From a virus: 35,594 bases of DNA. Below the pieces are notes generated by a model. It did not search any database and was not told the origin of the DNA. It saw only the letters and a program-made list of their open reading frames with translations. The stretch's first letter is position 1; each line of letters opens with the position of its first letter. Positions 1 through 28,095 of this stretch are shown piece after piece. The stretch spans positions 1 through 35,594 of IMG/VR virus record IMGVR_UViG_3300027631_000062. One strand, written 5' to 3'. Position numbers and translations under genes: made by a program.

Positions 1-19
1 GGGCTAATCATATACAAAT

Positions 20-30
20 GTTAGTATGTA
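20..30 (+). promoter_or_regulatory. Repeated phage promoter, copy 1 (GTTAGTATGTA)
   Basis: The core GTTAGTATGTA sits in a longer block shared with copy 2 (CTAATC, TAT, then AATGTTAGTATGTATTC). Read as an extended -10 it is TG-T-TAGTAT at 19-27, which puts the start of transcription near 34, exactly where the 5' arm of the RNA stem at 34-45 begins. The -35 region and any upstream inverted repeat lie outside the window. Promoter function is inferred from repetition and position. Confidence 0.6.
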
Positions 31-33
31 TTC

Positions 34-214
34 GTAAGGCAAGTGACTAGAGCATAGAGAGAACCTATGACGACGAGTGTGGTGACTTGTTCATTGAACA
101 CACTTGCCTTACACCCCCCCCAAGCATAAGTGCGCCTAGAGTGTTTATGCGAGTGAGAATGGCATAGTCGGACTTGCGGAGAATAAGGAGTGCTTCGGCA
201 CTCCTTATTTTTTT
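34..214 (+). ncRNA. Structured non-coding RNA candidate, unit 1
   Basis: Between promoter copy 1 and a strong terminator there is no usable ORF, but the sequence is highly foldable. A perfect 12-bp stem joins GTAAGGCAAGTG (34-45) to CACTTGCCTTAC (101-112). Inside it CATAG (54-58) can pair with CTATG (65-69). After the stem come eight consecutive C residues (114-121), a GCATAA/TTATGC hairpin, and the terminator hairpin. TAGTCGGA in its 3' part recurs in the leader of the unit 4 mRNA. An unpaired C-run could pair with G-rich ribosome-binding sites, but that is a guess. I do not recognise the RNA family. It lacks the hallmarks of tmRNA. Confidence 0.6.
182..214 (+). terminator. Intrinsic terminator of unit 1
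   Basis: Perfect 12-bp stem AATAAGGAGTGC (182-193), UUCG tetraloop, GCACTCCTTATT (198-209), running into a tract of T to 214. Confidence 0.92.
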
Positions 215-272: not shown

Positions 273-297
273 AAATTGTGTCTAATCGTATGGCAAT

Positions 298-308
298 GTT
301 AGTATGTA
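298..308 (+). promoter_or_regulatory. Repeated phage promoter, copy 2 (GTTAGTATGTA)
   Basis: Identical core to copy 1, with an extended -10 of the form TGnTAGTAT. About 17 nt upstream lies TGTGTC, whose last three bases (GTC) match the -35 positions of copies 3 and 4. The predicted transcript starts near 312 and leads into the gene at 347. Confidence 0.62.
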
Positions 309-346
309 TTCATAAGCGAGAAGGTATCTCACTTAGAAAGGTAACA

Positions 347-568
347 ATGGACAACAAAGACTTTGAGATAGTGAAAGAACTTATCGTACTGTTCACGGTA
401 TTGCGTAGCGAAGACTGTGTGCTAGTGGATAATGTTTCTGGTGCTAAAAAGACCAAAGAACTTGTCAAGGAAGCAATGAAGCAGACTGGTAATCCACGAA
501 AGTACAAGTACATTTGGTCGGGTAATGACCAAGCGAAACTCATCGTCTTTCTCGCCCCTAGTAAATAA
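347..568 (+). CDS. Hypothetical protein, 73 aa (unit 2)
   Basis: I do not recognise this family. The start chosen is ATG 347, with AGAAAGG five bases upstream. A longer reading from 278 would begin ahead of the promoter core, so it is less likely. The protein begins MDNKDFEIVKELIVLF, has a hydrophobic amphipathic N-terminal half, then a basic segment (KKTKELVKEAMK, PRKYKY) and ends with a beta-like LIVFLAPSK. There is no signal peptide and no cysteine pair. It is the only protein of unit 2, between promoter copy 2 and its own terminator, so it is presumably transcribed alone. Confidence 0.75.
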   Translation: MDNKDFEIVKELIVLFTVLRSEDCVLVDNVSGAKKTKELVKEAMKQTGNPRKYKYIWSGNDQAKLIVFLAPSK

Positions 569-584
569 CCTTTCCCCCCGATAG

Positions 585-619
585 AAAAAGAGCCGTACAT
601 CCAGTATGGCTCTTTTTTT
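585..619 (+). terminator. Intrinsic terminator of unit 2
   Basis: AAAAAGAGCCGTAC (585-598) pairs with GTATGGCTCTTTTT across a short loop, ending in a T tract. It lies 17 nt after the stop codon of the 73-aa gene. Confidence 0.88.
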
Positions 620-717
620 ATGTCCAAAATCAGACCACCACTCAGACAGGCAGGCATACCTATGAATATTGAACATATACGATACACGACTGATCACACA
701 ACGAAATATCCGGTCAA

Positions 718-757
718 GCTGGAGTGCAGGAAGGGTTTAGCTTTTTTGTGCTCCAGC
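718..757 (+). repeat. Inverted repeat upstream of promoter copy 3
   Basis: GCTGGAG (718-724) and CTCCAGC (751-757) are perfect arms around an interior containing GGGTTTAGCT (733-742), here flanked by AAG and CTT instead of GAG and CTC. The repeat ends 28 nt before TAGTAT of promoter copy 3. Confidence 0.7.
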
Positions 758-783
758 GAATAAGGGTCTATTTATGGGTAAGT

Positions 784-794
784 GTTAGTATGTA
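784..794 (+). promoter_or_regulatory. Repeated phage promoter, copy 3 (GTTAGTATGTA)
   Basis: Same core as copies 1 and 2. About 17 nt upstream is AGGGTC (763-768), matching GGGGTC of copy 4. The following leader contains the hairpin CGAAGC-AACAAC-GCTTCG and then AAAGGAG before the gene. Confidence 0.65.
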
Positions 795-838
795 GTTATC
801 GAAGCAACAACGCTTCGGTAGTCCGAAAGGAGATTCCA

Positions 839-1141
839 ATGGGAGTCAAGAAAGTAAACCTAAGCGAACTCAAAGGCTCGCTCAACAAGCGTGGTCGGGG
901 TCGCTTCGAAGACCCTGCGCTTCGTGAAGCGTTGGCACAGATGCTCGTAGACGGTGAGCCAATCGTCTATGACGAGTTGTTCACCGTTACTGGCAAGACC
1001 ACCGAGAAGCAGATTGACAACGAACACGCAAAGTGGCGCAATCGTGCCGTGAGCGTGTTTGAGTCGCTCGAATCAGGGCGCAAGGTGTCTGTCTCGTGGA
1101 CAGACGCACACGAGATGATTATCTCGCTTGCGAATGCCTGA
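839..1141 (+). CDS. Unknown phage protein, 100 aa, paralogue A (unit 3)
   Basis: Start ATG 839 follows AAAGGAG with a short spacer. The product is 100 aa and about 83 of 100 positions match the unit 4 protein by eye. The conserved core includes KVNLSELKGSLNKRGR, LREALAQML, YDELFTVT, KQIDNEHAKWRNRAVSVF and WTDAHEMIISL. The protein is basic near its N-terminus and appears helical, with no membrane segment and no cysteine motif. Function is unknown; a small nucleic-acid-binding or host-modulating protein is only a guess. Its codons end in G or C much more often than those of paralogue B or the minus-strand genes, suggesting separate acquisition or a different selection history. Confidence 0.85.
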   Translation: MGVKKVNLSELKGSLNKRGRGRFEDPALREALAQMLVDGEPIVYDELFTVTGKTTEKQIDNEHAKWRNRAVSVFESLESGRKVSVSWTDAHEMIISLANA

Positions 1142-1147
1142 CCAAGT

Positions 1148-1178
1148 TTGCCGTGAGTTCTGAATCATCTCACGGCAA
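1148..1178 (+). other. 3' UTR hairpin after paralogue A
   Basis: TTGCCGTGAG (1148-1157) and CTCACGGCAA (1169-1178) form a perfect 10-bp stem between the stop codon and the terminator. Units 2 and 4 have no equally strong equivalent. It could protect the mRNA 3' end. Confidence 0.6.
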
Positions 1179-1181
1179 GAG

Positions 1182-1212
1182 AAAAAGTACCCCTTCGGGG
1201 GTGCTTTTTTTT
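1182..1212 (+). terminator. Intrinsic terminator of unit 3
   Basis: Stem AAAAAGTACCCC (1182-1193) / GGGGTGCTTTTT (1198-1209) with a UUCG tetraloop, then T residues. Confidence 0.9.
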
Positions 1213-1367: not shown

Positions 1368-1393
1368 GTTTTGGGGTCTATTCATAAGGGAAT

Positions 1394-1404
1394 GTTAGTA
1401 TATA
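1394..1404 (+). promoter_or_regulatory. Repeated phage promoter, copy 4 (GTTAGTATATA)
   Basis: One base differs from the other three copies. GGGGTC (1373-1378) lies 17 nt upstream of TAGTAT, and GGGTCTATT is shared with copy 3. The leader that follows has a GGC-AATAAC-GCC hairpin and then GGAGG. Confidence 0.63.
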
Positions 1405-1447
1405 AGGGTAAGGCAATAACGCCCTACCAAATAGTCGGAGGTATCCT

Positions 1448-1750
1448 ATGGCTGTTCGTAAAGTAAACCTAAGTGAGTTGAAAGGCTCATTGAATAAGCG
1501 AGGCAGAGAGCGTTTCAACGACCCTGAATTGCGTGAAGCATTGGCACAAATGCTTATTGACGGTGAAGCCGTACTGTATGACGAATTGTTCACAGTAACG
1601 GCTAAGACAACAAGTAAGCAAATTGACAACGAACACGCTAAATGGCGTAATCGTGCTGTTTCAGTATTCAATTCACTTGAAAGTGGTCACAAAGTTTCTG
1701 TGACTTGGACAGACGCTCACGAAATGATTATTTCGTTGGTTCAGCAATAA
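1448..1750 (+). CDS. Unknown phage protein, 100 aa, paralogue B (unit 4)
   Basis: Start ATG 1448 follows GGAGG in a TAGTCGGAGG leader. It is exactly the same length as paralogue A and aligns without gaps. Differences cluster at the N-terminus, around residues 37-56 and at the last three residues, while KQIDNEHAKWRNRAVSVF and TDAHEMIISL are unchanged. Codons are AT-rich like the rest of the phage (TTG, GCA, ATT, AAT), so many synonymous sites differ from paralogue A. Conservation of protein but not DNA implies old duplication or independent gain, with selection on the protein. Function unknown. Confidence 0.85.
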   Translation: MAVRKVNLSELKGSLNKRGRERFNDPELREALAQMLIDGEAVLYDELFTVTAKTTSKQIDNEHAKWRNRAVSVFNSLESGHKVSVTWTDAHEMIISLVQQ

Positions 1751-1775
1751 TTTATTCCGTAAGGAAACAATTAGG

Positions 1776-1807
1776 AAAAGGGAAGGCGAAAGCCTTCCCT
1801 TTTTTTT
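1776..1807 (+). terminator. Intrinsic terminator of unit 4
   Basis: AAAAGGGAAGGC (1776-1787), GAAA tetraloop, GCCTTCCCTTTT (1792-1803), with the T tract continuing to 1807. Confidence 0.92.
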
Positions 1808-4439: not shown

Positions 4440-4958
4440 TTATTCCTTTTCTGTATTTGGTTCGTAATCTTTATATTTGTCAAAGTTTACATTTAATCTT
4501 GACAATTCTAATTCCCATTGTTCGGGGGGTCTGCCATCGTGAATGCTTTGTAATTCTTTTAACATTAGATAAGAATTATCTGTCAATTTCCAAGCAGGAT
4601 TTGATCTAATAACAGCATCCCAAACTAATTCATAGGGTTCAATTGTTTTACCCTCCATTTCAGTGTCATAGAAATTATCTAAAATTAGACAACCAACTGC
4701 GCATTTAGCATCATGTTCTGTATCAGTTAAAATATCATAGAATATATCATAATCATAATCATTGTCATAATGATTATTATTATTAAAATTCTCGTCTATA
4801 GATATAGCGATAGCCTGTTCCCTAACATTATCTAATGTTGAAGAAAGATATCCACGATATTGGCAATCTTCAGTATCGCTCCATGCCTTTTCTTTTTGTG
4901 CAAGTAAGTGTGCTGCGACAAACATAAATGCTTCATAATCATTTGTAATTAGTGACAT
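4440..4958 (-). CDS. Hypothetical acidic protein, 172 aa
   Basis: The start at 4958 (MSLITNDYEAFMFVAAHLL) follows AAAGGAGATAATA, a strong site, whereas 4985 has none. The protein is helical at both ends with a low-complexity Asn/Asp/Tyr segment in the middle (about residues 59-73). No catalytic motif or membrane segment seen. Overlaps the upstream gene by 20 nt. Confidence 0.75.
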   Translation of the reverse strand: MSLITNDYEAFMFVAAHLLAQKEKAWSDTEDCQYRGYLSSTLDNVREQAIAISIDENFNNNNHYDNDYDYDIFYDILTDTEHDAKCAVGCLILDNFYDTEMEGKTIEPYELVWDAVIRSNPAWKLTDNSYLMLKELQSIHDGRPPEQWELELSRLNVNFDKYKDYEPNTEKE

Positions 4959-5133
4959 TATTATCTCCTTTAAATGTGTCTTCAAATTTATAAATTAACT
5001 TTTCAATTGTAAATCTAGCTTTATTGTCAAAGCTAGACAAATAGTCTAATAGATCTTTATCAATGGCAAGATTATGCAATCCTGACAATAAGATCTTAAC
5101 TTCATTCTTATCTAGATCAACTACACTACTCAT
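4939..5133 (-). CDS. Hypothetical helical protein, 64 aa
   Basis: MSSVVDLDKNEVKILLSGL starts a compact all-helix pattern with regular leucines and a basic/acidic mix. Its start overlaps the stop of the zinc-finger gene upstream. No recognised family. Confidence 0.7.
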   Translation of the reverse strand: MSSVVDLDKNEVKILLSGLHNLAIDKDLLDYLSSFDNKARFTIEKLIYKFEDTFKGDNNVTNYK

Positions 5134-26185: not shown

Positions 26186-26371
26186 TTAAAATTCTTTATT
26201 TACTTCGCCATGTTCGTGATCAAGTTCATGAACAATTGATTCAAGTTTTTGTATCATTATTTTCATAACCGTATTCTCCATAATAAGGTTGGAGATTGTT
26301 CCGGTCAATTCCTTGACGATTTCATCGTAAGAAGGATTTACATCTTCTCTTGTTATAGGCTTTCGAGCCAT
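26186..26371 (-). CDS. Hypothetical helical protein, 61 aa
   Basis: MARKPITREDVNPSYDEIVK then a coiled-coil-like stretch (ELTGTISNLIMENTVMKIMI). It overlaps the 3' end of the large terminase gene by 19 nt. Not recognised. Confidence 0.68.
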   Translation of the reverse strand: MARKPITREDVNPSYDEIVKELTGTISNLIMENTVMKIMIQKLESIVHELDHEHGEVNKEF

Positions 26372-28095
26372 TTTTCACCACTTTCTGTAGATAAGGTTTG
26401 CTTGTCATAGCCAGGAACAAACTGGCCAATATCATTATTATACACCCTAACCGTACCAAATTCTTCCATATCGTCAAGCTCTTCATATTGCTTGAAGTCA
26501 GAGCCAAGAATTTCAATATCGACTTCCATTTCCATTGACATATTCTCAACACATGTAAAAACTGAACCGGCTAATGCGTCAGCCAAATCTTTTGATCCAG
26601 AGTTCGGGTGATCAATTTTGTTATTGGCAAACAATCTTAATTTTAACAACTCTTCCTCAACCAATAACTCATTCCAATAACCACGCAATCTTGTATCATA
26701 TATTGTTGTCATTAAAGTATCGTAATCAGTTTTTTTAACGCTATGGAAATCAGCATTGATACCTTGCGCTTTAAGACTTTGGATCATCTCAATGGATTGC
26801 CAACGGTCAAAAGTTACTTTTGCTACATCAAATTTCCTACATAATTCAATAATCATTTGCCTAACTGAAGCAAAATTAATTTCAGCTCCGGGAGCTGCTT
26901 CCCAAGAATGAATTAAATCAACATTAATAACTGGAAGGTTTTCCACTCCCATAGATGTTTTAATTTCTTTAAAGCCAGCACAATGACTCATGCATAAAGC
27001 TGACCTGTCTCTTTTAAGTCCTAAGTCAATATGAATAAACCTTCTGTGCCCATCTGTATTATTAAACCAAGGCTTATAAATACCATCTTCATCAACAGGG
27101 CTTTCTGCATGCATAAAAGATTTCCTTACCAGATCAGGATCTCTAAAGTATGCGTCTTCCATTGCCGGAGGTTCACATTCAAATCTTGCCCTAGCCTCAA
27201 TTGGATTTCTAATATATTCTGATTCTAATTGATGTCTTTCAATCGTAGGATTACATTCCCATGTAGCAGCTTTAATTCTCCAAGTTTTTGGTTCTTCTCT
27301 TTCAGCAGAACCAAAATATCTCTGTTGAATAAAGTCTCCTTTATATCTAGGGAAAGACAAAAGAATAACCTTACCGACTTCCGGGAAACGAGACATAACA
27401 GATAGCTTACTCATGTTATAAATTGCAGAGGCAGAACCTTTTGATCTTAATTCTCCTCTTGTTTCCGCGTCTGTTTTAAAAGCTGAAATCTCATCCAAAA
27501 TTACAGTCATAACTTCATAACCTTCCCAACCTTCACTTTCAGAGTGACCTGAGAAGCATCGTACTGGTCTGCTAAAGAAAAAGATTTCAGATACTCTTGG
27601 TTCAAATCCTACGGAGTTAAAGTAAGGTGAACTTAGTAATAAGTTCTTTAAAGGTTCAAAGAAAACTCTTTGAGCCTGTTGAGCGTTTACGGCCAAGTTA
27701 AGAAGGTCAATATACACACCTTTTGCTTTTCCGTAATAACCTAATGGGTCTTTTAGACAATGAAGAATGTAAACGGTATAAGCCATTGATATTCTTGCAC
27801 AATGGTCTTTTCCAGAACCTTTGCCTAACATGCAGATCACTTCGTTGTCGGTATATTTTTTATAATATTCTGACCCTTTTTCCTCCCCCATCATCTTTTG
27901 TAGGGTATGCTCTTTCAAGATTTGCGTACTGTGCCTTACAATTTCTAATTGAATGGGGCTTAGGTTTGGTAAACCCAAAAATCTTTTATCAGTTACAAAC
28001 TCTTCAATAGACACCGGGACTTCTTCAAGTTCATCTTGATTTAATAACTTATCGAAATCTTCATATCGAAGATTCATTCCAAGATAATCACTCAT
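26353..28095 (-). CDS. terL: Terminase large subunit, 580 aa
   Basis: The packaging motor ATPase and nuclease. Walker A is LGKGSGKD (90-97), Walker B VMTVILDE (195-202) with catalytic Glu202. The RNase-H-like nuclease domain begins with FIHIDLGL (Asp357 the first metal ligand), and the C-terminal SKDLADALAGS fits the third acidic position. Length is typical for a phage terL. It lies directly downstream of terS with a repeat-rich gap, and GGAGATAAATAA precedes the start. Confidence 0.93.
   Translation of the reverse strand: MSDYLGMNLRYEDFDKLLNQDELEEVPVSIEEFVTDKRFLGLPNLSPIQLEIVRHSTQILKEHTLQKMMGEEKGSEYYKKYTDNEVICMLGKGSGKDHCARISMAYTVYILHCLKDPLGYYGKAKGVYIDLLNLAVNAQQAQRVFFEPLKNLLLSSPYFNSVGFEPRVSEIFFFSRPVRCFSGHSESEGWEGYEVMTVILDEISAFKTDAETRGELRSKGSASAIYNMSKLSVMSRFPEVGKVILLSFPRYKGDFIQQRYFGSAEREEPKTWRIKAATWECNPTIERHQLESEYIRNPIEARARFECEPPAMEDAYFRDPDLVRKSFMHAESPVDEDGIYKPWFNNTDGHRRFIHIDLGLKRDRSALCMSHCAGFKEIKTSMGVENLPVINVDLIHSWEAAPGAEINFASVRQMIIELCRKFDVAKVTFDRWQSIEMIQSLKAQGINADFHSVKKTDYDTLMTTIYDTRLRGYWNELLVEEELLKLRLFANNKIDHPNSGSKDLADALAGSVFTCVENMSMEMEVDIEILGSDFKQYEELDDMEEFGTVRVYNNDIGQFVPGYDKQTLSTESGEKWLESL

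Follow-up and report, generated by a model that had tools for sequence, protein, structure and literature searches.

A strongly folded unit without an ORF in a phage array of short tandem transcription units: a candidate non-coding RNA

What does a phage make from a transcription unit that folds strongly and has no conventional open reading frame? The question arises at the start of a 35,594-base linear IMG/VR virus record (the window, i.e. the whole stretch of DNA analysed here), which probably is a fragment of a phage genome. An earlier note had described positions 34 to about 214 (unit 1) as a folded RNA and a candidate regulator. The large terminase of the window (26353-28095, minus strand) is 38-40% identical to those of the large Streptomyces phages Jay2Jay, Tomas and Coruscant, and a WhiB gene and a transglycosylase-like gene are present as well; together with this likeness, they make an actinobacterium very probable as the host. 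Close terminases occur in many viral contigs (the best 80 of 388 relatives are 78-100% identical), and our interpretation of the sample collections is that the phage group is probably a freshwater one. Unit 1 was said to lie in AT-rich DNA: that description suits most of the remaining window (about 33% GC) but not the first 2 kb, with 43-45% GC. The unit sits at the contig start, the end being the least certain part of an assembly, and the sequence further upstream lies outside the record. Its features are:

19 to 27, plus strand: extended -10 promoter element of unit 1 (TG-T-TAGTAT, TGTTAGTAT); exact copies of TGTTAGTATRTA occur in all four units, one in each
34 to 45, plus strand: 5' arm of the 12-bp closing stem, from the predicted +1 (inverted repeat, fold)
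53 to 69, plus strand: inner hairpin 1 (53-57/65-69), whose 3' arm contains the ATG of a 20-codon frame (fold)
67 to 129, plus strand: doubtful 20-codon ATG frame, MTTSVVTCSLNTLALHPPQA, with a weak GAGAGA upstream (sequence)
72 to 91, plus strand: inner hairpin 2 (72-78/85-91; fold)
101 to 112, plus strand: 3' arm of the 12-bp closing stem (inverted repeat, fold)
114 to 121, plus strand: run of eight C, unpaired (sequence and ensemble)
124 to 150, plus strand: weaker hairpin (124-129/145-150; fold)
178 to 213, plus strand: intrinsic terminator, arms 182-193/198-209, TTCG loop and T run (inverted repeat, terminator search)

Direct sequence reading and an inverted-repeat search both confirmed the perfect repeat at 34-45/101-112 (GTAAGGCAAGTG/CACTTGCCTTAC), and the inner hairpins, the run of eight C and the UUCG terminator of the earlier note were likewise all recovered. 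The stem also begins where transcription is predicted to begin, as had been claimed: the +1, deduced solely from the extended -10 element at 19-27, falls near G34, and the transcript that we infer from it would carry a 5'-terminal stem-loop. This stem is not a product of chance. Only 3 of 20,000 dinucleotide shuffles of 34-177 reach a perfect stem of 12 bp, and each of its 12 pairs has an ensemble probability of 0.988 or higher when 34-213 is folded. The folding strength of the unit resides in its leader part: the fold z-score is -5.2 for 34-215, -2.1 for 34-176 (terminator excluded) and -5.4 for 34-113 alone, the most extreme value among all leaders folded. As to coding, the absence of an ORF stands for frames of at least 30 aa and for frames with a good ribosome-binding site (none of either inside unit 1) but not for the 20-codon frame listed above. 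With its own promoter and intrinsic terminator, and no ORF preceded by a Shine-Dalgarno (SD) sequence, unit 1 has the layout of a trans-acting small RNA.

Unit 1 does not stand alone: it belongs to an array of short, tandem transcription units, the truncated end of which spans 1-1806. Four plus-strand units, each ending in its own terminator, fill this segment and face minus-strand genes. The promoter sequence TGTTAGTATRTA has exactly four copies in the window, one ahead of each tandem unit (with at most one mismatch there are 6 matches, against 0.54 expected). The remaining units and one of the palindromes between them are:

297 to 621, plus strand: unit 2, with promoter (297-308), leader hairpin, ORF 347-568 (73 aa), C6 run (574-579) and terminator (581-621)
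718 to 757, no strand assigned: intergenic palindrome with core GGTTTAGC, upstream of the unit 3 promoter
783 to 1212, plus strand: unit 3, with promoter (783-794), leader hairpin, ORF 839-1141 (100 aa) and terminator (1179-1212)
1393 to 1806, plus strand: unit 4, with promoter (1393-1404), leader hairpin, ORF 1448-1750 (100 aa) and terminator (1773-1806)

The leader hairpin of unit 4 opens with GTAAGGCAA, as does that of unit 1, and the first nine leader bases are common to both. Unit 2 lies directly downstream of the terminator that closes unit 1, an order in which unit 1 could act as the leader or attenuator of unit 2 and would not be a separate RNA. Unit 2, however, has a leader hairpin and a promoter copy (297-308) of its own, and the arrays of related phages show an equally independent layout; we give this explanation almost no chance. 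That unit 1 yields a discrete RNA we consider likely.

Units 3 and 4 encode paralogous proteins with 83% identity and no known family, neither Pfam nor PHROG giving one for 839-1141 or 1448-1750; a structure model of fair quality (pLDDT 74) gave only weak matches to IF3-C, R3H and KhpB (Z about 5) that were not used to argue for a function. A profile of these paralogues located similar arrays in seven related records (G010, G011, G012, G018, G019, G028, and G033), and three further near-copies were found later. Six arrays among the relatives are non-redundant (G010 and G011 are nearly identical), each with 8-11 units that usually run from promoter to leader hairpin, SD, ORF and terminator, and the family of about 100 aa occupies the end of all arrays with 2-3 copies each. 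Between the successive terminators found in the relatives, in a survey that could miss units with unusual or weak ones, there is always an ORF of at least 33 aa, and the ORF-less unit 1 is therefore an exception.

An exception of this kind might be only apparent if the frame at 67-129 were translated, from a start codon within an inner hairpin, so that the fold controls a small peptide. Its ATG is preceded by AGAGAGAACCT, a similar AGAGAGAACAACT stands ahead of a coding unit in the relative L144 (ORF 8812), and the arrays of L142 and L144 include a 33-aa gene. On the other hand, the core SD is absent, the start codon is paired in the predicted fold, the peptide has no recognisable features, and the frame shares bases with the 3' stem arm; such a tiny mRNA is distinctly unlikely.

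Several observations on the arrays and their surroundings are recorded here in their own right. Palindromes of 36-42 bp recur between array units, in the window (718-757, 1234-1269, 1329-1367, and 1829-1864) and in the relatives L139 and L141-L145, some of the listed matches being due to chance; their arms resemble CTGGYGT/ACRCCAG around a core GCTTYAGC or its complement, and possibly they are an operator for a phage regulator. The window promoters are preceded by GGGTCTAWTC and differ in this from the arrays of L141 and L143, where TTGAATACACATT forms the -35 region and is repeated upstream of palindromes. A few array genes probably are leaderless, with the start codon at or beside the predicted +1 (L139, 7894 and 8537; L145, 2208 and 3873). 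Five relatives (L141 4724-4891, and likewise L142-L145, in array orientation) carry an element GACCGTTATAG upstream of the array; a hairpin whose sequence varies comes after it, with a T-run as well in four of the five. The element's matches have nhmmer E-values of 1e-38 to 1e-23, and its position would fall to the left of the window. Between the array and the minus-strand genes, the terminator region 2580-2647 is 88% identical in G042 and G043 and is the best-conserved DNA within the first 3.5 kb.

The leader hairpins connect unit 1 to the coding units. We examined 59 coding units (3 in the window, 56 in relatives) and folded their leaders from the +1, as placed by the -10 element, to the start codon. 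A leader of at least 25 nt is present in 52 of them (units 2-4 and 49 in relatives); a few array units have short leaders or none, and the hairpin is thus not universal. These 52 leaders, which are not independent as related ones share history, have a mean z of -1.97, and 31 rank in the best 5% of their own shuffles. As a control, a fair but inexact match since they lack a predicted +1, the 40-nt stretches that precede 41 genes of this phage outside the array have a mean z of -0.11, with 5 of 41 in the best 5%. Two phages contribute seven different leaders to a subclass in which each of the 49 pair cells is canonical and both sides have changed at five of the seven pairs (counted by script from equal-length pieces, MAFFT having gapped the subclass wrongly); these compensatory changes belong to the subclass leaders and not to unit 1. 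Given the z-scores relative to the controls together with the compensatory changes, the array leader hairpins look like real RNA structures, and among related leaders, unit 1 itself being outside this set, structure is kept despite sequence change. It fits these data that the 12-bp stem is the longest form of an array-wide 5' leader hairpin and unit 1 its extreme member.

The loops of the subclass share A at position 1, C at 7, A at 10, and C at 12. By eye, a C/U-rich part of the loop is complementary to the unit's own SD in several of these leaders, a putative pseudoknot. One could envisage the array as a single regulon of structured leaders, some with this conserved A...CC..A.CC loop and putative SD pseudoknot, that are read by a phage RNA-binding protein, perhaps of the 100-aa family of units 3 and 4, with unit 1 as a free-standing decoy leader that titrates the protein. 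We mention this as a speculative, highly unlikely scheme.

Searches for unit 1 elsewhere gave no relative. A DNA search of 84 related records returned no match spanning 34-214, nhmmer over all 175 fetched loci matched only the window's own sequence, and the exact stem pattern was absent from the IMG/VR viral contigs; its one exact match, in a Herbinix genome, agrees in the arms only and was judged to be chance. Matches to 13-32 in three records proved to be one promoter-like stretch without unit 1. In the Rfam comparison proposed in the earlier note, neither unit 1 nor any array of the relatives matched a family at gathering score (the best sub-threshold match over 1-620 scored 21.1 bits where 56 were required, E 1.1). 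For the array, a search of bacterial genomes found no member of the family, single-protein searches with units 2 and 4 found no relatives, and BLAST of 1-2000 against named phages gave no match. Fetched contigs with 96-100% identical terminases, mostly short, showed no array match, and a search with the gene at 4440-4985 yielded one relative, whose sequence stops before the array. A promoter-pattern scan of IMG/VR produced 8 matches, all within unrelated sequence and judged to be chance.

The lack of an ORF and of any homologue found, in arrays whose content turns over fast and whose units differ among relatives, would also suit a decayed unit that lost its ORF by deletion and retains promoter, leader and terminator, its RNA being functionless. 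Decay, however, would not build a perfect 12 bp enclosing 55 nt; moreover, the leader fold of unit 1 is more stable than that of any intact unit, and its terminator is intact. We consider decay unlikely, while a functional non-coding RNA has, in our judgment, slightly better than even odds.

How such an RNA might act is a separate matter. The earlier note envisaged a trans-acting small RNA whose C8 run pairs with G-rich SD sequences. The run is indeed accessible (90-98% unpaired in the ensemble of 34-213), but it lacks the U required for pairing with GGAGG or AAGGAG, and pairs poorly with them. Across the 44 start regions of the window fragment, its mean duplex energy is -5.43, compared to -5.63 for random phage 50-mers, and the best target of the whole RNA (-27.6) is worse than that of its own shuffled copies (-30.7, sd 2.5). 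Runs of at least 6 C also occur elsewhere in the arrays, mostly inside terminators or right after stop codons; the remaining 33.6 kb of the window have two runs of at least 6 C or G. Since these phage start regions are not preferred and C runs recur in the arrays, C8 more likely is a compositional or termination-linked habit of the arrays than a seed, and the targeting model retains hardly any probability. What survives of the candidate regulatory RNA, then, is its anatomy: a discrete unit that folds strongly, has a promoter and a terminator, and apparently codes for nothing. The action of C8 on SD sequences is not supported.

The reading that we prefer, by a narrow balance of probability, is that of an ORF-less array unit yielding a discrete, stable, non-coding RNA. 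Unit 1 would be a member of the array with its promoter, 5'-terminal leader hairpin and terminator, the hairpin being drawn out to its longest form around two inner hairpins. Its product most likely would be a stable RNA of about 180 nt with both ends closed by helices. In the coding units and unit 1 alike, the leader hairpin most likely hinders 5'-end-dependent decay, because it would leave no single-stranded 5' end; any contact sites in trans would be the exposed parts, namely C8 and the inner loops. Should unit 1 prove real, it would add an undescribed small RNA to an uncultured group of phages related to large Streptomyces phages. The broader and better supported finding, compared to unit 1 alone, is the array with structured 5' leaders: small genes, each under its own promoter and ended by its own terminator, that usually have a 5' leader hairpin showing covariation. 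No description of tandem arrays of this kind was found in the searchable literature.

Known systems offer partial parallels. The small RNAs and riboswitches of Rfam, like unit 1, are short structured RNAs with a terminator, but neither unit 1 nor the arrays belong to any of their families at gathering score (tRNA genes elsewhere excepted). The ori RNAs of mycobacteriophages RedRock, Alma and LadyBird, which adjoin parABS and are required for replication of the extrachromosomal prophages (PMC7157519), resemble unit 1, by description, as ORF-less transcripts of actinobacteriophages; no comparable setting came to notice here. It is established that bacterial mRNA can gain stability from a 5'-terminal stem-loop (Emory 1992 and Bouvet and Belasco 1992, both listed in PMC3997798). 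The ompA, papA and aprE leaders, as the array units, place a helix at or beside the 5' end of the transcript, followed in coding units by a single-stranded SD; the array units differ from them in being tandem phage units, with one, unit 1, devoid of an ORF, and in that stabilisation here is putative.
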